From: a bacterium
Lineage (GTDB): Bacteria; Krumholzibacteriota; Krumholzibacteriia; LZORAL124-64-63
Direction of reading: 5' to 3'
DNA: 64,000 nt
NCBI GenBank assembly: GCA_024231905.1
Contig: JAAEQC010000142.1
Coordinates: 62,001-126,000, forward strand
Made by a program: the position numbers and the translations under genes. Below the pieces are notes generated by a model, which saw only the letters and a program-made list of their open reading frames with translations, ran no database searches and was not told the DNA's origin. Shown piece by piece: positions 49,259 to 56,949 of this stretch (position 1 is the first letter of the stretch; the number at the start of each line of letters is the position of its first letter).

Positions 49259-50229
49259 GCGACATCATGCACCTGGGCCTGGACACGGGCGGCACCGGTA
49301 CGAAGTTCGTGCTCGTGGACGCGGACGGTGAGACCGTGGGCACCGGCGAGATTCCCACCAACCCCGACGACCCCGTGGACTCCTTCGGTTATCTGCCGAA
49401 CATGCTCAACCAGTGGCAGGGCGACCGCGAGCCCCTCGTACCGCGGGTGGTGGGCCTGGCCTGCGCCGGCATCGTCGATCCGGAGAACCTCACCCTCGGC
49501 CGCTCGCCGAACCTGCCCGGCTGGGAGGGACGCGATCTGGGCGCGGTGCTGCGCCGGGTCTTCCCCGCCTCGGGCATCGTCCTGGTGAACGACGTGAACG
49601 CAGCTCTCTACGGCGAGTACCGGCAAGGCGCCGGACAGGGCTGCCGTGACCTGGTCATGCTGGCCCTGGGCACCGGTGTCGGTGGCGGCGTCCTGGTGGA
49701 CGGCAAGCTGCTCACGGGCGGCCACCACGGGGCAGCCGAACTGGGGCACATGGTTCTCGATCCCCAAGGACCCGTGTGCCGGTGCGGCAACCGGGGTTGC
49801 CTGGAAGCCTGGGCCGGCAGCGTGGCCCTCAGGCACCGGGCAAGGCAGGCGGCGCAGGGCGAGGACGACGGGGCGGCCGATCTCCGCCGCCGTGCGCAGG
49901 ATCGGGGCTGCGATCTCGATCCGCGCGATCTGGCCGAGGCGGCCGCGGCGGGCAACGAGCTGGCCTCGAGCATCTACGCGGAGGCAGGCACGCGTCTGGG
50001 ACAGGCCGTGGGCAACCTGTTGAACGTGCTGGACCCGGACAAGGTCATCATCGGCGGGGGCGTCGCTCAGGCGGGCGAACTGCTCCTGGAGCCCTGCTGC
50101 CGGGAGGCCCGGCGGATCGTCCTGGCCGAGGGGGCGCGCGAGACGCCCATCGTGCCGGCGGAACTCGGCGTCCATGCGGCGGCCGTGGGCGCCTGCTGGC
50201 TCGCTCGCGAAGCGGAGGCCGGCGGTTGA
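49255..50229 (+). CDS. ROK family sugar kinase (glucokinase-like)
   Basis: 324 residues. The ATP-binding motif DTGGTGTKFVLV opens the protein; the catalytic aspartate is in VNDVNAALYGE, and the ROK zinc signature is CRCGNRGCLEAWAG, preceded by GHMVLDPQGP with the conserved histidine. E-L-G-H in AAELGHM is typical of glucokinases and N-acetylmannosamine kinases, so glucose is a likely but unproven substrate. No helix-turn-helix domain is present, so it is an enzyme rather than a regulator. The GTG start overlaps the folC stop, with a GAAGGGGAAGG stretch upstream; its stop overlaps lptD. Confidence 0.88.
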   Translation: MSDIMHLGLDTGGTGTKFVLVDADGETVGTGEIPTNPDDPVDSFGYLPNMLNQWQGDREPLVPRVVGLACAGIVDPENLTLGRSPNLPGWEGRDLGAVLRRVFPASGIVLVNDVNAALYGEYRQGAGQGCRDLVMLALGTGVGGGVLVDGKLLTGGHHGAAELGHMVLDPQGPVCRCGNRGCLEAWAGSVALRHRARQAAQGEDDGAADLRRRAQDRGCDLDPRDLAEAAAAGNELASSIYAEAGTRLGQAVGNLLNVLDPDKVIIGGGVAQAGELLLEPCCREARRIVLAEGARETPIVPAELGVHAAAVGACWLAREAEAGG

Positions 50230-53200
50230 ACCGAACCCCACGGCAGACACGGTCATCGCGGAGCCGGTTCCCCTGCCTGCTGCTGCCGGCGGTGATCGCC
50301 CTGGGGGTGCTGGGCGGCGCGCTGGCCGCCGACCGTCCCGCCGCCGCCGCCGACCGGCGCTTCTCCCGGCTCAGAGCCGACCGCGTCGTCGAGCGTATCG
50401 TGGACGGCGAGCGCATCACCTACCTGTACGGGAACGCTTTCATCGACCGGGACACGGTCACCGCCGCGGCGGACACGGGCGTCGTCTACCGCGACCGGGA
50501 ACGCTACGAACTCTACGGCCACGTCCGCCTGACGAATCTTGGCACCATCCTCACCTGCCGGCGGGCGATCTATCTGCGGTTGCTTGGGTCCGGGGATTTC
50601 TACGACGACGTGCGGGTGGTCGAGGATGAAGTGGTGGGTACTGGCCGCATGGGCAAGTCCCGCCGGGCCGGGCGCGACCTGCACCTCATGGGTAACGCGC
50701 TGCTGGTCACGCCCGAGTACTCGGTGCGCGCCGACACCATCTACCGCGACCGCCTCACCGGCGTGGGCGAGGCCTTCGGCCACGTACGAATCATGGAGCC
50801 CGGGGCCGAGAACCTGGTCACCGGCGACCACGCCGTCTTCCTGGCCGACGAGGACGTGGCCGAGGTGGACCGCAACCCGGTCCTGACGAGCCGCGGCCAG
50901 ACCAACGGCCCCCTGGTGAGCACGGCGGGCCTCATGCGCTTCTTCCGCGCCGAAGACCGGGTGGTGATGATCGACTCGGTGCGCATCCGCCAGGCCCAGA
51001 TGTTCGCCAAGGCGGATACGGCCGTGGCCCTGGGACGCGAACGCCTCCTTCTGACCGGCAACCCGGAAGTGGAGCAGGGCGCCTCCAGCGTCATGCGGGG
51101 CGAGGAGATCGAGTTCTTCTACCGCAACGGCCTCCTGCACCGGGTCATCCTCACCGGGCAGGCGATCATGGAGGACTCGGCTCCCGACAGCCTGTCGGGC
51201 ATCTATCGGGGCCTGCCCGGCCATGATGTGCTGGAGGGCGACTCCATCTCCATCGAGTTCGAGGAGGGCCAGATCCGGCGCAGCGTCGTGGTGGGCAACG
51301 CCCGCAGCCGCTACACGCCCCTGGACCTGGAGGAGGAGGTCGCCACCAACGACGTCTCCGGCGACACCATCGTCCTCTACTTTCGGCAGGACCAGGTCCA
51401 GGAAGTGGATGTGCGGGGCGGCGCCAGCGGCAACTACCGCTTCGCCCGCATCGGGGACATGCTCGACCGGCGGGCCCGTTCCCGGCGGCTGGCCGACTTG
51501 CTGGCGGACCCGGAGGCAGCTGCGGGGGATTCGTCCCTGGCCGCCGACCTGGACAGCCTCTCCTTCGCCGACCTGGACAGCGCCCGCCTGGTCGAGGTCG
51601 ACTCCCTGGCCCGGGACCTGGGCTTCCACCTGCCGGATCGCTCGGCGGCCACCGAGGGCATGGCCGATTCCCTGCTCGCGGCGGCCCTCGACTCCCTGGC
51701 GGTGGCGGGGTTGGATACGGCCCGGTCGATCCTCGATTTTCTGGCCACCGCCGAAGACGTGCACTACAGCGGCAACGCCCTGACCTTCGGCATGCGCGAA
51801 CGGAAGATCGACATCGAGGGGGACGGTCGCCTCGAATACGGCTCCATGGTCCTGACCGCCCGCCACATCAAGCTCGACACCGACGAGCGCGAACTCTACG
51901 CCGACGGCGATCCCCTGGTGGAGGATGCCGAGACCATCGCCGGCGAACGCATGGGCTACAACTTCAAGCACAAGACCGGCGCCGTGACCGAGGGCGTGAC
52001 CAGTTTCGACCAGTTCTACTACGTGGGTGACGAGATCAGGCGTTTCGAGGACACGACCCTCAAGATCCGCGGCGGACGCATGACGTCCTGCGACCTGGAG
52101 GAGCCCCACTACCATTTCTGGTCCAACCGCATGAAGATGCGCATGGAGGACAAGGTCGTCGCCGCGCCGGTGGTCATGCACGTGGGGCGGGTGCCCATCT
52201 TCGCCCTGCCCTTTTACTACAAGAGTCTCAAGCAGGGTCGCCAGTCGGGCATCCTCTTTCCGAATTTCGAGTTCGGCTGGTCCAACCGTGAAGGCCGCTA
52301 CATCCGCGACTTTGGCTACTACTGGGCCACCAACGAGTACATGGACATCATGTTCGAGGTGGATTACAACGAGCGCCGGGACCTGGGTTGGCGGGTCCAG
52401 CAGGTCTACAACAAGCGCTACGCCTTCAACGGGTCCGTGAACTACAGCCGCAAGGTCAGTCTCGGCAGCAATACGAAGAAGAAGGAGTGGAGCCTGCGGG
52501 CCAACCACAACCAACCGAACCTCTTTGACGACTACCGCTTCACCGCCAAGATAGAGTTGGCCAGCCAGACCCTCTCCAGCAACGACCTGGCCGGCAGCAT
52601 CGACCGCGACGTGGTCAGCGGCCGGCAGGCCACGGACATCAGCATCTCCCGCTCCTGGGGCTGGGGCAACACCAGCCTCACGGGTAACCGGCGCGAGTTC
52701 ACCAACGCCGGTGACGACGACCCCAAGACCGACGCCACGCTGCACACCATGACGCTGCCTTCGCTGAGTGTGAACTTCAAGGACATCACGGTTCTGCCCC
52801 AGCGGCGGGGGGCCGGCCAGGGCAGCTTCCTGGGTGAACTCGGTCGCAACACCTACTTCAAGCAGTCCTACCGGACCAAGGTGGACGAGCGGGGCGGCGA
52901 GGAGATCGACACCCGCCGGATGGATGCCGCGGGCAACTGGTCCCTCACCGTGCGCCCGCCGCGGCTGGGCTTCCTCAACTTCAGCGGCGGCGCCAGCGCG
53001 GCCCAGACCTGGTCACGGACCGATTCCACGGGCCGCCACTGGATCGAGGAGACGGAGACCGAGGAAGGCTACTGGGAGGAGATCGATTCCTTCGTGGAGA
53101 AGACCACGCCGAGCATGAGGTTCAATGCCAACGCCAACACGACCCTCTACGGCCTCTTCCCCGTGCAACTGGGCAGCCTGCGGGCCATCCGCCACACCCT

Positions 53201-54128
53201 GCGCATGTCCACGGGTTGGAGCGTGCAGCCGGCGCTGCCTGGCCACCAGATCCACTCCTCCACTTTCAGCTTCGGCCTGGGCAACCGCTTCGACGTGAAG
53301 TACGAGGGAGCCGGCGAGGACTCGACGGTCACCGAGAAGAAGCTCGACGGTCTCATCGACTGGGACCTGGGGACCGGCTACAACCCGCGGGCCGAGCCGG
53401 ACGTGCGATGGAGCGACATCACCAGCCGTCTGACCATACGGCCGGGCCAGGCGCGGTACCTCCAGCTCAAGGTGACCAACCGCATCGACCCCTACAGCCT
53501 CGCCCTGAAATCCACGAGCTTCTCCTACGGATTGAATTTCTCCGGGCGCCTGGACGTGGGCGAGGTGGCCCCGCCGCCCGAGACGGCCCGCAACCGGAAC
53601 ATCGAACGCCTGGGGGAGCCGGCGGAGGCGGAGGCCGATACGGTCCTCGACGAGGACGCCCAGATCCTGGCGGAATTCGACGAGGAACAGGGCCTCCAGG
53701 GCAGCCGTCCCGACACCCGGGAAGACGAATACTCCCGCTTCAATCGGGGCGACATGGCCAAGGATACCAAGGACCCCACCGAGGGTGGTCGCTACATCCC
53801 GTTCGACATGGGTACCAACCTCAACTACAGCTACTCCAACGCCAGCGAACAGAAGAACGCCACGGCCAACTTCAATCTCACCACGAACTTGACGCGCAAC
53901 TGGGAATTCCGGTACCAGGTCGGTCTCGACCTGGCGAACGACTCGATCGTACGCCAGCAGTACAGTCTGAACCGCAATCTCCACTTCTGGCGCCTGGAGT
54001 TCACGCGCACCATCAGCACCTTGGATTCCTCCTTCGGATTCCGTCTCTACCTGCGGGCGATTCCCGATCTCAAATTCTCCCGCGGGGTGGAGAACTACAC
54101 CGCCTCTCCCGGCAGTTTCCTCCCCTAG
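50226..54128 (+). CDS. lptD: LPS-assembly outer-membrane protein LptD
   Basis: About 1300 residues, unusually long. A signal segment (about 17-40) is followed by repeated OstA/LptA-like jellyroll strands (for example YLYGNAFIDRDTVTAAADTGVVY, then RDLHLMGNALLVTPEYSVRAD), then an alanine/aspartate-rich stretch (about 415-510). The conserved LptD core comes next: a TSCDLEEPHYHFW segment, RVPIFALPFYYKSLKQGRQSG and a long beta-barrel. It threads lipopolysaccharide to the cell surface. The gene starts at TTG 50226, overlapping the ROK kinase stop (TTGA), so translation is probably coupled. The longer frame upstream is a shadow. It proves the presence of an outer membrane in this organism. Confidence 0.9.
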   Translation: MNRTPRQTRSSRSRFPCLLLPAVIALGVLGGALAADRPAAAADRRFSRLRADRVVERIVDGERITYLYGNAFIDRDTVTAAADTGVVYRDRERYELYGHVRLTNLGTILTCRRAIYLRLLGSGDFYDDVRVVEDEVVGTGRMGKSRRAGRDLHLMGNALLVTPEYSVRADTIYRDRLTGVGEAFGHVRIMEPGAENLVTGDHAVFLADEDVAEVDRNPVLTSRGQTNGPLVSTAGLMRFFRAEDRVVMIDSVRIRQAQMFAKADTAVALGRERLLLTGNPEVEQGASSVMRGEEIEFFYRNGLLHRVILTGQAIMEDSAPDSLSGIYRGLPGHDVLEGDSISIEFEEGQIRRSVVVGNARSRYTPLDLEEEVATNDVSGDTIVLYFRQDQVQEVDVRGGASGNYRFARIGDMLDRRARSRRLADLLADPEAAAGDSSLAADLDSLSFADLDSARLVEVDSLARDLGFHLPDRSAATEGMADSLLAAALDSLAVAGLDTARSILDFLATAEDVHYSGNALTFGMRERKIDIEGDGRLEYGSMVLTARHIKLDTDERELYADGDPLVEDAETIAGERMGYNFKHKTGAVTEGVTSFDQFYYVGDEIRRFEDTTLKIRGGRMTSCDLEEPHYHFWSNRMKMRMEDKVVAAPVVMHVGRVPIFALPFYYKSLKQGRQSGILFPNFEFGWSNREGRYIRDFGYYWATNEYMDIMFEVDYNERRDLGWRVQQVYNKRYAFNGSVNYSRKVSLGSNTKKKEWSLRANHNQPNLFDDYRFTAKIELASQTLSSNDLAGSIDRDVVSGRQATDISISRSWGWGNTSLTGNRREFTNAGDDDPKTDATLHTMTLPSLSVNFKDITVLPQRRGAGQGSFLGELGRNTYFKQSYRTKVDERGGEEIDTRRMDAAGNWSLTVRPPRLGFLNFSGGASAAQTWSRTDSTGRHWIEETETEEGYWEEIDSFVEKTTPSMRFNANANTTLYGLFPVQLGSLRAIRHTLRMSTGWSVQPALPGHQIHSSTFSFGLGNRFDVKYEGAGEDSTVTEKKLDGLIDWDLGTGYNPRAEPDVRWSDITSRLTIRPGQARYLQLKVTNRIDPYSLALKSTSFSYGLNFSGRLDVGEVAPPPETARNRNIERLGEPAEAEADTVLDEDAQILAEFDEEQGLQGSRPDTREDEYSRFNRGDMAKDTKDPTEGGRYIPFDMGTNLNYSYSNASEQKNATANFNLTTNLTRNWEFRYQVGLDLANDSIVRQQYSLNRNLHFWRLEFTRTISTLDSSFGFRLYLRAIPDLKFSRGVENYTASPGSFLP

Positions 54129-54175: not shown

Positions 54176-54205
54176 TTGACAGCTTTCCGGGGAGCGGGGT
54201 TTGAT
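54176..54205 (+). promoter_or_regulatory. Promoter of the HU gene
   Basis: TTGACA at 54176-54181, an 18-base spacer and TTTGAT at 54200-54205, upstream of a near-perfect Shine-Dalgarno (AAAGGAGGTGA at 54213-54223). The arrangement suggests strong expression, as expected for a nucleoid protein. Confidence 0.6.
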
Positions 54206-54227
54206 GGATCCGAAAGGAGGTGACAGC

Positions 54228-54521
54228 ATGAATAAGACGGAACTGACCGACACGCTGGCCAAGAAGACCGGGATGAGCAAGGCAGCCGCCAAGCGCGCTG
54301 TTGACGCTCTATTCTCGACCGCCCCCCGCGAGGGGATCATCGCCTCGGCCGTGTCCAAGGGCGACAAGGTCCGGATCACCGGTTTCGGCACCTTCGAACA
54401 GCGCAATCGCAAGAAACGCATGGGGCGCAACCCGCAGACGGGCGCCTCGATCACGATCCCGGCCGCCAAGTACCCCGCTTTCGTGGCGGGCAAGAGCCTG
54501 AAGGATCGGATGCAGAAGTAG
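54228..54521 (+). CDS. HU family DNA-binding protein
   Basis: 97 residues, the standard HU/IHF length, a small basic protein that bends and packs DNA as a dimer. N-terminal helices (MNKTELTDTLAKKTGMSKAAAKRAVDAL region) are followed by the DNA-binding beta arm with GFGTFEQRNRKKRMGRNPQTG. The proline-tipped arm RNPQTG is intact. The ATG at 54228 is preceded by AAAGGAGGTGA, an almost ideal ribosome site, and followed by its own terminator, so the gene is monocistronic and probably highly expressed. Confidence 0.95.
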   Translation: MNKTELTDTLAKKTGMSKAAAKRAVDALFSTAPREGIIASAVSKGDKVRITGFGTFEQRNRKKRMGRNPQTGASITIPAAKYPAFVAGKSLKDRMQK

Positions 54522-54563: not shown

Positions 54564-54749
54564 TTCGCCGTTTCCGTCGGGAGGGCGGGATGACCCGGGT
54601 CCTTGCCCGGGAGCGGTGCGCGGTCTATCATGATTCAACGGGAACCCCGGTGGCCTATGCGTGTTACGCCCCGGGTGTCGTCCGAAGCCGGCCGCGTCTC
54701 GGGAGATCGGCCGGAACTCCGTATCCATCGTTCCGAAAGGCAAACGGAC

Positions 54750-56132
54750 ATGAGCGAACGTGATGCCCGCGGACTGCGTGCGCGGCTTCCCTGGTTGATT
54801 CTCGCGGCCGTGGTGATACTGCTGGTTGCCGCCTCCGTGGCGGCCGCCGAGGCCAAGGACCGCGGCGAGGCCGCCGAAGAAGACTGGGCACCGGTCACCC
54901 TGCTCTACATGACAGATGTGAAGGGCAAGATCGAACCCTGCGGCTGAAAGGCTAACAAGCGTGGCGGGTTGGCCCGGAGGGCCACCTTCATGGAAAACGT
55001 TTGGAACGAGAACGCGCCGACTCTGATGCTCGACGGCGGCGACGTGTTCGGCCAGCGCAACCGGAAAGACAAGCTGCAGACGGAATTCCTGTGCGAAGTC
55101 ATGGGTGATCTGGGTTACGACGCCATCGGTCTCGGTGAGCGCGACCTCAACTATGGCCTCGGTTTCCTGCGCGGGATGATCGAGAAGTTCGAACTGCCGT
55201 TCACCAGCGCCAACGTGCGGGTGGCGGGCAGCGAGGACCTCCTGCTGCCGGAGTTCCTGGTCGTCGAGCGCGGTGGTGTCCGCTTCGGCATCGTCAGCGT
55301 CCTGGATCCCAACAAGCGCATCATCACCATGTCCTCCGACGCCGAGAGCTTCGAGGTGGACGACCCGGTGGTGACCCTGCGCACGGTGCTGCCGCGCCTG
55401 CGCGAGCAGTGCGATACGGTGGTCCTGCTGGGTCACCTGGGCAACGGCGTCACCGAAGAGGTGGTGCGCGAGGTGCGCGGCATCGACCTGGCGGTCATGG
55501 GCCACACCTACCGGGCGGCCAATGACGAGCGCATCGTCGACGACACGATCCTGCTCTCGTCGGCCTACGAGGGGCGGCAGGTGGGTCGGGCCGACATCTT
55601 CGTGAGCCGGGACAAGGGCCGGATCATGGCCGTCGACGTGAACATCACCCAGCTCAACGACAAGGTCGCCGACGACGAGTCCATGGCCGCCCGCATGGAG
55701 AAATACAAGGCGGACCTGGTGGCCATGAAGGAGGCCCAGCGTGCGGCCTTCCCCCGGAACCTGGGCTCGGCCAAGGAAAACTTCCTGGGCGACCGCGCCT
55801 GTAAGGCCTGCCACGAGACCTCCTGGAACGCCTACGCGTCCTCGGCCCACAAGCAGGCGTTCCGCACCCTGCGGGCCAAGGGGCAGGGCTTCGAACCCGA
55901 GTGCCTGGTCTGCCACACCACGGGATTCCAGCACCGGAACGGCTACAGCGACAAGAGCCCCTACAACCGTTTGACCAACGTCCAGTGCGAGGCCTGCCAC
56001 GGTTACGGCACCGAGCACGAGCGGAGCGGCCCCTGGGGCGCTCAGGCCAAGGATTCCTGCGTGCGCTGCCACGACCAGGAGAACAGTCCGAATTTCGACT
56101 ATGAGACCTACTGGGCCAAGATCAAGCACTAG
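54750..56132 (+). CDS. Probable selenoprotein: metallophosphatase-like (UshA-like) domain with C-terminal tetraheme cytochrome c
   Basis: Read as one 460-residue protein through an in-frame TGA at 54945-54947 (codon 66). The first part has a signal peptide (LPWLILAAVVILLVAASVAAA) and TLLYMTDVKGKIEPCG; after the TGA the same frame continues as KANKRGGLARRATF. I would expect EPCGC-x(n)-GGLARR in this kind of protein, so the TGA replaces a cysteine in a C-x-C pair, as selenocysteine often does. The calcineurin-like fold follows, with LDGGDVF, GERDLNYG and MGHTYR, many canonical metal ligands being altered. Four CxxCH haem sites lie at C351, C385, C413 and C437. A hairpin suited to a SECIS starts 14 bases after the TGA. 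It is probably a periplasmic redox protein. The alternative is a nonsense mutation or sequencing error. Confidence 0.75.
54961..54985 (+). promoter_or_regulatory. SECIS-like hairpin downstream of in-frame TGA
   Basis: GTGG at 54961-54964 pairs with CCAC at 54982-54985, and CGGG at 54965-54968 pairs with CCCG at 54973-54976, leaving loop TTGG and a 5-base bulge (GAGGG) on the 3' side. The apical loop begins 22 bases after the TGA and contains GG, the region and feature expected for bacterial SelB recognition. No folding program was run. Confidence 0.5.
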
Positions 56133-56949
56133 CGGCCGAGGCCGCGCGGGGAACGGCCGGCGTCTGGCGCCGGTCGTTCTCGTGCTGGTGCTGCTGGCGG
56201 CGGCCGCTCCGGCGGCGGCCCTGGACGTCTTCACCCTCTGGCGCCAGCCCGAGGTGCCCCTGCGGCTGGAGGAAGGCGCCTGGGTGGATTACCGCACCCA
56301 GGTCATGACCGGCGGTCGCCGTCGGCACGGACTGACCCGGCTGGCCTGCCTCGGCCGTGACGGCCAGGACGAAAACGCCTCCTGGATCCTGGAGATCCTG
56401 CCCCTGGCCGAACGGGACGACGGCTCGCTGGTGCCCGTCAAGGAGGACGCGGTGCGGCTCGAGGTCGCTCCGGCCCTGGCCGAGCGGGCCGGCAGCCTGC
56501 TGGACAATGTGCGCCGGGCCCGCCAGTGGCGCGGCGGCAAGCCCACGGACCTCTCCCTGGAGCAACTGCGCGAGAACCCGCTGCTGGCCGCGTCCCTGGA
56601 GGATGAGTTCGTGGCCGACAGCGTGGAGACGAAACACCCCACGACCCGGGTCGTGGGCGGGCATGAACTCCTCTGCGACCAGCTCGTGCTCACGGCCGAG
56701 GACACCGACACCTCCGATCTACCCGCCGGCCGCGTGATCCAGACGACGGTCCGCGAGATCTCCGCCGCCGTCCATGCCGACGTGCCCTTCCTGGGTCTGG
56801 TCTACGTGGCCGAACGCGTGCGCAGCTCGTCGCGGCTCGATCCGCCCAGCGACCGCTTTCGCGACCCGCCGCCCCAGAGCCGGGTGGAGATCATGGAACT
56901 CGTAGGCTTCGGCGACGATGCGAAACCGGTGCTGACCGGGTCTGATTGA
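56101..56949 (+). CDS. Exported protein of unknown function downstream of the selenoprotein candidate
   Basis: 282 residues from the ATG at 56101, which overlaps the upstream gene by 32 bases; no ribosome site is obvious, so the start is tentative. An N-terminal hydrophobic segment (LAPVVLVLVLLAAAAPAAA) is a likely signal peptide. The mature protein is a mix of strands and charged helices (YRTQVMTGGRRRHG, DNVRRARQWRGGK) with two cysteines, and I do not recognise a family. Overlap with the multiheme gene suggests a shared transcript and perhaps a shared process. It ends just before the promoter of the exonuclease gene. Confidence 0.65.
   Translation: MRPTGPRSSTSGRGRAGNGRRLAPVVLVLVLLAAAAPAAALDVFTLWRQPEVPLRLEEGAWVDYRTQVMTGGRRRHGLTRLACLGRDGQDENASWILEILPLAERDDGSLVPVKEDAVRLEVAPALAERAGSLLDNVRRARQWRGGKPTDLSLEQLRENPLLAASLEDEFVADSVETKHPTTRVVGGHELLCDQLVLTAEDTDTSDLPAGRVIQTTVREISAAVHADVPFLGLVYVAERVRSSSRLDPPSDRFRDPPPQSRVEIMELVGFGDDAKPVLTGSD

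Follow-up and report, generated by a model that had tools for sequence, protein, structure and literature searches.

The gene at positions 54750-56132 (+ strand) of a 64,000-nucleotide stretch of bacterial DNA, called the window in what follows (positions 62,001-126,000 of the forward strand of contig JAAEQC010000142.1, assembly GCA_024231905.1; LZORAL124-64-63, Krumholzibacteriia, Krumholzibacteriota), contains an internal stop codon that, judging from sequence comparisons, is almost certainly read as selenocysteine (Sec). With a probability of about 0.85, we consider that the gene encodes a SECIS-directed selenoprotein of the curated family NF041198, which would reside in the periplasm and use a Cys64-Gly-Sec66 redox pair exchanging electrons with a tetraheme domain. 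The gene adds a well-supported member to a selenoprotein family that is already known, and the selenoprotein type itself is not new.

Gene layout and family membership

From the ATG at 54750, which has AAAGG nine bases upstream, to the TAG at 56132 there is a single frame whose sole interruption is the TGA at codon 66. As described in the initial annotation, which had seen two same-phase frames split by one TGA, reading through gives KIEPCG-U-KANKRGGLARR within a product of 460 residues. The parts of the gene are the following:

54750-56132, + strand: complete UshA-like selenoprotein gene, 461 codons including one UGA predicted to be read as Sec, with a TAG end (NF041198 score; tblastn matches of fused homologues reach residue 460)
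54786-54851, + strand: hydrophobic stretch at the N-terminus covering residues 13-34, putative export signal or membrane anchor (sequence; predicted helix 3-37 in the model)
54885-55649, + strand: UshA/5'-nucleotidase-like metallophosphoesterase domain in which several metal ligands are altered (profile matches; best folds are 5'-nucleotidases; ligand counts)
54936-54947, + strand: Pro-Cys-Gly-Sec motif, residues 63-66 (P63 and C64 in 45/46, G65 and U66 in 46/46 fused four-haem Sec proteins)
54945-54947, + strand: in-frame TGA, putative Sec codon 66 (column shared with aligned homologues)
54967-54987, + strand: putative bacterial SECIS hairpin with GGA (54976-54978) as its apical loop, inner six pairs unbroken in the window (comparison with relatives, covariation)
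55782-56129, + strand: tetraheme c-type cytochrome domain, c554-like (PF13435, 47.5 bits, cut-off 20.8; conservation)
55800, 55902, 55986 and 56058, + strand: four CxxCH motifs, at residues 351, 385, 413 and 437
55848, 56016 and 56127, + strand: three further invariant His codons of the tetraheme domain, H367, H423 and H460 (conserved in 46/46)

Taken alone, the downstream piece could start at the earliest at a TTG at 54969 in the list of open reading frames (ORFs), and it would then have no export signal. Since c-type haem motifs require export, this counts against a separate second gene. Against NF041198, named "UshA-like (seleno)protein" in NCBIfam, the same piece scores 242.9 bits, under the cut-off of 275, which is passed only by the read-through protein (285.8 bits, E 5.9e-85). 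The earlier view of the downstream part as a continuation is thus borne out, as is the suspicion that the family could be a known one, namely NF041198 (UshA_like_PCGU). The profile, with 519 positions, matches the window gene in two stretches (14-271 and 348-519), and its positions from ~345 to 519 matched the tetraheme part of many genes in a search across the phylum. Because the profile covers the tetraheme part too, the fusion of the UshA-like and tetraheme domains is the curated family's own architecture, and the proposal that it might be new is not supported. With NF041198 the window protein shares the score above the cut-off, the PCGU motif and both halves of the profile; no family-defining difference was found, and what is added is the host lineage and the genomic context.

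A Pfam scan of the read-through protein placed Cytochrome_C554 (PF13435) over residues 350-418, listed Metallophos with an E value of 0.13 only, and did not list the 5'-nucleotidase C-terminal domain. Cytochrome c554 shares the tetraheme domain with its four CxxCH motifs, which in the window protein is fused to a UshA-like domain. The second UshA-like family, NF049981, matched the N-terminal part at 46.4 bits, far under its cut-off of 140, and has, according to passages of a review, a CxxU motif (PMC13188914) instead of the CxU of the window protein.

The family has some history. In a 2008 ocean survey, a COG0737 UshA-like selenoprotein with a CxU motif (76 Sec and 92 Cys sequences) appears among the families described earlier (PMC2398784), and passages of two reviews also include a UshA-like protein with CxU (PMC9312934, PMC13188914), the second of them giving NF041198. 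The equation of the COG0737 entry with NF041198 rests on the shared name and on the CxU motif in those passages of the reviews. ExtKL of Geobacter (NF040886) is likewise a predicted c-type cytochrome selenoprotein, tied by its authors to selenite reduction in the relevant passage (PMC5877670), but its five haem motifs lie in the N-terminal part and its C-terminal part is described as having no characterised relatives (PMC1914089); no NF040886 match to the window protein was listed at E 1 or better. In the open literature searched we found no paper on the function or the haem part of the NF041198 family, nor any mention of the lptD-HU neighbourhood presented below; the initial annotation had suggested that the context may be new.

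Selenocysteine column, SECIS element and selenium machinery

In 69 other aligned homologues, partly hand-picked in favour of TGA-bearing copies so that the Sec:Cys ratio is no census, column 66 is Sec (TGA) in 54, Cys in 15 and another residue in none. The initial annotation had named this column as a place to look, together with the chance that the TGA was a read error, which is excluded because 54 other genes have a TGA at this very column. These genes come from GTDB families f1-f5 and f8, and one relative is titled Candidatus Latescibacterota. A search with the NF041198 profile across the phylum gave matches in all 80 genomes covered, out of 300 requested, and over the cut-off in 14; the weak matches are unspecific, 9 of 14 control genomes giving them too and none passing the cut-off. 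Within the window's own GTDB family, a copy with one TGA was found in at least 36 of 38 genomes among the matches listed. Neither of the two genomes without such a copy (G064 and G071) has the close HU copy or the downstream neighbour. A search for lptD found nothing in G064, and in G071 a match over the first third with the frame running off the contig end. For G071 this establishes a gap at the locus, and for G064 it makes one likely.

When a tree was built from the UshA-like part with residue 66 masked (68 rows), the 14 Cys rows all grouped in a single clade (100/99), and the window's branch held 38 fused Sec rows and no Cys row, with the caveat that deep forks joining long branches were flagged as unsafe by the tree tool. 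A divergent fused relative at L088:4938-6377 carries Ala-Gly-Sec in place of Cys-Gly-Sec, hinting that Sec rather than Cys may be the indispensable residue.

The host genome (G000, 94.7% complete) contains the machinery for selenocysteine insertion, whose presence had been raised as a check on the initial proposal. Profile searches for tRNA-Sec (selC), SelB, SelA and SelD gave one match each over the cut-off, and ARAGORN independently reported a tRNA-SeC with anticodon tca. As to the specificity of these searches, 5, 2, 1 and 2 of 14 control genomes, respectively, were also over the cut-off, and below it matches occur in up to all 14 of them. The selD gene (L019:1501-2418, - strand) has itself an in-frame TGA, in SAG-U-AAK, and SelD of this organism is probably a selenoprotein too. 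In two other genomes (G047 and G070) the TGA gene is present with no selA match, probably because these assemblies are incomplete.

For the SECIS element we relied on the bacterial model given in a passage of PMC13188914, with a loop of 3-9 nt, a stem of 4-16 bp, a G within the loop's first two positions, a UGA-to-loop distance of 16-37 nt and an energy of at most -7.5 kcal/mol, applied with our own script, which requires an uninterrupted stem. The window hairpin, UGGCCC-GGA-GGGCCA, conforms to this model, with -9.5 kcal/mol and a loop of 3 nt that lies 28 nt past the UGA. A hairpin with a 3-nt loop at this same distance occurs in 52 of 55 Sec genes (the window included), whereas among the Cys homologues, several of which have weaker hairpins, none of 15 has its best one at that position and with that loop size. 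All conditions of the model hold for 42/55 Sec genes, against 0/15 Cys homologues and a mean of 7.5% for the other codons of the same genes; 13 of the 55 fail the energy test with an uninterrupted stem.

Covariation points in the same direction. In an ungapped alignment of 55 rows, pairing within the 9-bp helix is possible in 87.6% of cells, compared with 78.5% in shuffled alignments and at most 56% in versions slid along the sequence. Covariation scores 0.307, compared with 0.159 after shuffling (0/500 shuffles attain the observed value) and no more than 0.146 slid, and the cells changed on both sides number 41, against 15.3 (again reached in 0/500). At column pair 27-39 all six standard pair types are seen, and RNAalifold alone recovers the inner six pairs. 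Two other measures did not rise above the controls in this comparison: the further pair types (13, with a shuffled mean of 13.9 and 16-17 in two slid versions), and the number of pairs in which both partners change (4, a value that 85 of 500 shuffles and two slid versions attain as well).

Codon usage beneath the hairpin agrees with this. In the 47 fused Sec genes, Arg76 is CGG in 45 and Arg77 is AGG in 31, compared with frequencies of 28.8% and 6.3%, respectively, among their remaining Arg codons; the Cys homologues have mostly CGC for Arg76 (8/15), and AGG for Arg77 is common there too (7/15; background 20.3%). Taken alone, a scan of synonymous identity over seven codons is weak evidence for a SECIS: the fused Sec genes have their highest value in the stretch that starts at codon 70 (0.701) with codon 104 nearly equal (0.700), in all Sec genes the codon 104 stretch leads (0.709 vs 0.682 for codon 70), and the stretch from codon 73 that covers the hairpin takes no better than 18th place among 410 and 42nd among 400, respectively. 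Codons 104-110 (55059-55079), 38 codons after the Sec codon, thus form a second stretch of high synonymous identity.

Folding of the window sequence by itself was not significant in four stretches (z from -0.09 to -1.64); the SECIS signal stems from the comparison with relatives. Rfam gave, over 54600-56400, two weak matches far below the gathering score, neither of them to a SECIS family. The initial annotation had a GG-containing hairpin beginning 14 bases after the TGA and pointed to 54945-54990 for a SECIS prediction; a hairpin does exist, but the fold of that region alone favours other hairpins, and the one that is conserved, covaries and agrees with the model lies at 54967-54987. At the ribosome, this hairpin would hold SelB with Sec-tRNA-Sec 28 nt downstream of the UGA at 54945, leading to the insertion of Sec.

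Two explanations do without selenocysteine. That the TGA is a real stop, in a pseudogene, through a sequencing error or between two separate genes, could draw on the TTG at 54969 as a start for the second part and on the use of TGA as a stop elsewhere in the window, where it terminates 7 of 10 ORFs checked (and two of the four with an assigned family: ROK, LptD, HU and exonuclease). Nevertheless, the downstream frame stays open and carries the haem motifs, its product would lack an export signal, the SECIS hairpin covaries, and the recurrence of the TGA across families f1-f5 and f8 has in practice already refuted this explanation, to which we give almost no credence. Equally hard to believe is that an altered code or a suppressor places another amino acid at the TGA: the support for Sec is admittedly sequence-based, but the same frequent use of TGA as a stop speaks against a changed meaning, Cys is the sole alternative at the column in the 69 homologues, none of the 15 Cys homologues agrees with the SECIS model, and the genome has a complete Sec machinery. 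Altogether, the sel genes, the Sec/Cys column and the SECIS comparison strongly support the proposal of a selenoprotein with which the work began.

Metal ligands, haems and the likely activity

In UshA and the 5'-nucleotidases, the two-metal ligand set consists of DxH, D, NH, H and GHxH/Q. Alignment and counts over the 46 fused Sec proteins that carry all four haem motifs revealed that the intact set is not present in the window protein, in agreement with the altered phosphatase ligands noted initially. Position 58, the His of DxH, is His in only 4/46; in the Asn-His pair at 130-131 Glu replaces Asn in 36/46 and the second residue is variable, as is position 254, the last His/Gln. On the other hand, D56, D95, H229 and H252 survive in 37-38 of the 46, so a metal site may remain. 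Several members (e.g., L081, L083, L087 and L090) have lost most ligands and yet keep CGU. In the same set of proteins, all Cys and His of the four CxxCH motifs, which had been recognized from the start, are kept in 46/46 together with G65, U66, H367, H423 and H460, and C64 in 45/46.

Cytochrome c554 has one five-coordinate haem, and the window family resembles it in combining four CxxCH motifs with three further invariant His. The four haems and three spare His suggest three bis-His haems and a fourth with an open or otherwise filled sixth position, that is, one that probably has no second His ligand. An AlphaFold2 model from a 3-row alignment (mean pLDDT 64.8) was used for the fold of the N-terminal domain only; the CGU loop, like a large part of the haem domain, was modelled at pLDDT < 50, so the model does not place the loop relative to a haem or to the metal site.

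With the ligands decayed and Cys-Gly-Sec and the haems fixed, we infer that Cys-Gly-Sec acts in redox chemistry and is coupled to the haems. The product is likely a periplasmic redox protein, and the idea that Cys-Gly-Sec is the active site of a redox enzyme, put forward in the initial annotation, is consistent with these data and likely. The protein would be exported and its four haems attached in the periplasm, where a former phosphatase domain that has lost its full metal set would present Cys64-Gly-Sec66 as a selenol/thiol pair, most likely swapping electrons with a substrate and passing them to or from the tetraheme domain.

It could be instead that the protein, while a selenoprotein, acts mainly as a metal-dependent hydrolase, a phosphatase or a SoxB-like sulfohydrolase, in which Sec binds the metal or serves as nucleophile and the haems play a minor part. 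The four surviving ligands would fit such an activity, as would SoxB being the second-best NCBIfam match (84 bits, far under its cut-off of 550), and UshA, the 5'-nucleotidases and SoxB do have the fold of the N-terminal domain. They differ, however, in the metal ligands that in the window protein are mostly replaced (His58, the Asn-His pair, His/Gln254), in the C-terminal domain that the Pfam scan did not list, and in scores far below the cut-offs; the members that drop most of the remaining ligands and retain CGU weigh further against a hydrolase, which we regard as unlikely. A more daring version of the redox reading would make the protein, in this class, a core, Sec-obligate, haem-wired selenol oxidoreductase for outer-membrane biogenesis beside LptD, in which CGU and an open haem swap electrons directly, with CGU possibly providing the sixth ligand. 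We hold this to be quite improbable; if true, selenium would offer thiol electrons a way into a cytochrome chain.

Gene neighbourhood and meaning for the family

The immediate neighbours of the gene are:

50301-54128, + strand: lptD, LPS-assembly barrel, upstream (PF19838, 178.1 bits; 49776-54128 in the ORF list, so that the start given is tentative; conserved upstream)
54201-54521, + strand: HU/IHF-type DNA-binding protein, upstream (PF00216, 102 bits; conserved upstream)
56101-56949, + strand: probably secreted protein, downstream, overlapping the gene end in the ORF list, where its start may be later (conserved downstream; no Pfam match at E 0.01)

Counting haem-motif Sec copies with enough flank and excluding the window, lptD lies upstream in 35/39, HU in 35/41 and a ROK kinase in 18/18, and the downstream side shows the unknown protein in 31/41, an exonuclease in 17/23 and a further unknown protein (58168 in the window) in 19/21. 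Beside four copies lptD was not found (L030, L035, L037 and L060), and HU was missing beside L058, L061, L074-L076 and L081. The block is absent beside the Cys copies (lptD 0/12) and beside six haemless Sec copies not cut by a contig end; among the haemless Sec rows, lptD accompanies only L091, which like L036 is cut off by a contig edge, and both may be truncated fused copies. Since the block is shared by the fused Sec copies and missing at the Cys and uncut haemless ones, the fused Sec gene is, by this comparison of gene order, a positional orthologue in families f1, f3, f4, f5 and f8. These neighbours being housekeeping genes, the synteny may reflect only slow rearrangement.

No ORF with two or more CxxCH motifs that could act as a haem partner in trans was found in the flanks of 20 haemless copies (mostly ~1.4 kb or 5 kb, some nearly absent). 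Two haemless Sec UshA-like copies of family f5 (L078 and L085) lie between an ORF of ~1500 codons and a second, presumably Nif3-like ORF. That a neighbouring selenol protein might serve the disulfide of LptD was also considered. Among 24 aligned LptD proteins of the class, one Cys is kept in 23 and another in 21, and the window LptD has Phe at the second of these positions, which leaves the idea unsupported for this genome.

Altogether, a catalogued and functionally uncharacterised selenoprotein family is extended to an uncultured class, where the gene looks fixed, with the TGA copy in at least 36 of 38 genomes of the family among the matches listed and no Cys among the 38 fused rows of the branch. 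What has been added to the known family is this fixation, a covarying SECIS, the decayed ligands beside fixed CGU and haems, and a conserved block with the ROK kinase, lptD, HU and the selenoprotein gene. The lptD-HU neighbourhood offers a concrete, though weak, lead to function, and the contrast of decayed metal ligands with a nearly invariant Cys-Gly-Sec and its four accompanying haem motifs speaks for a redox function, which makes the family testable.
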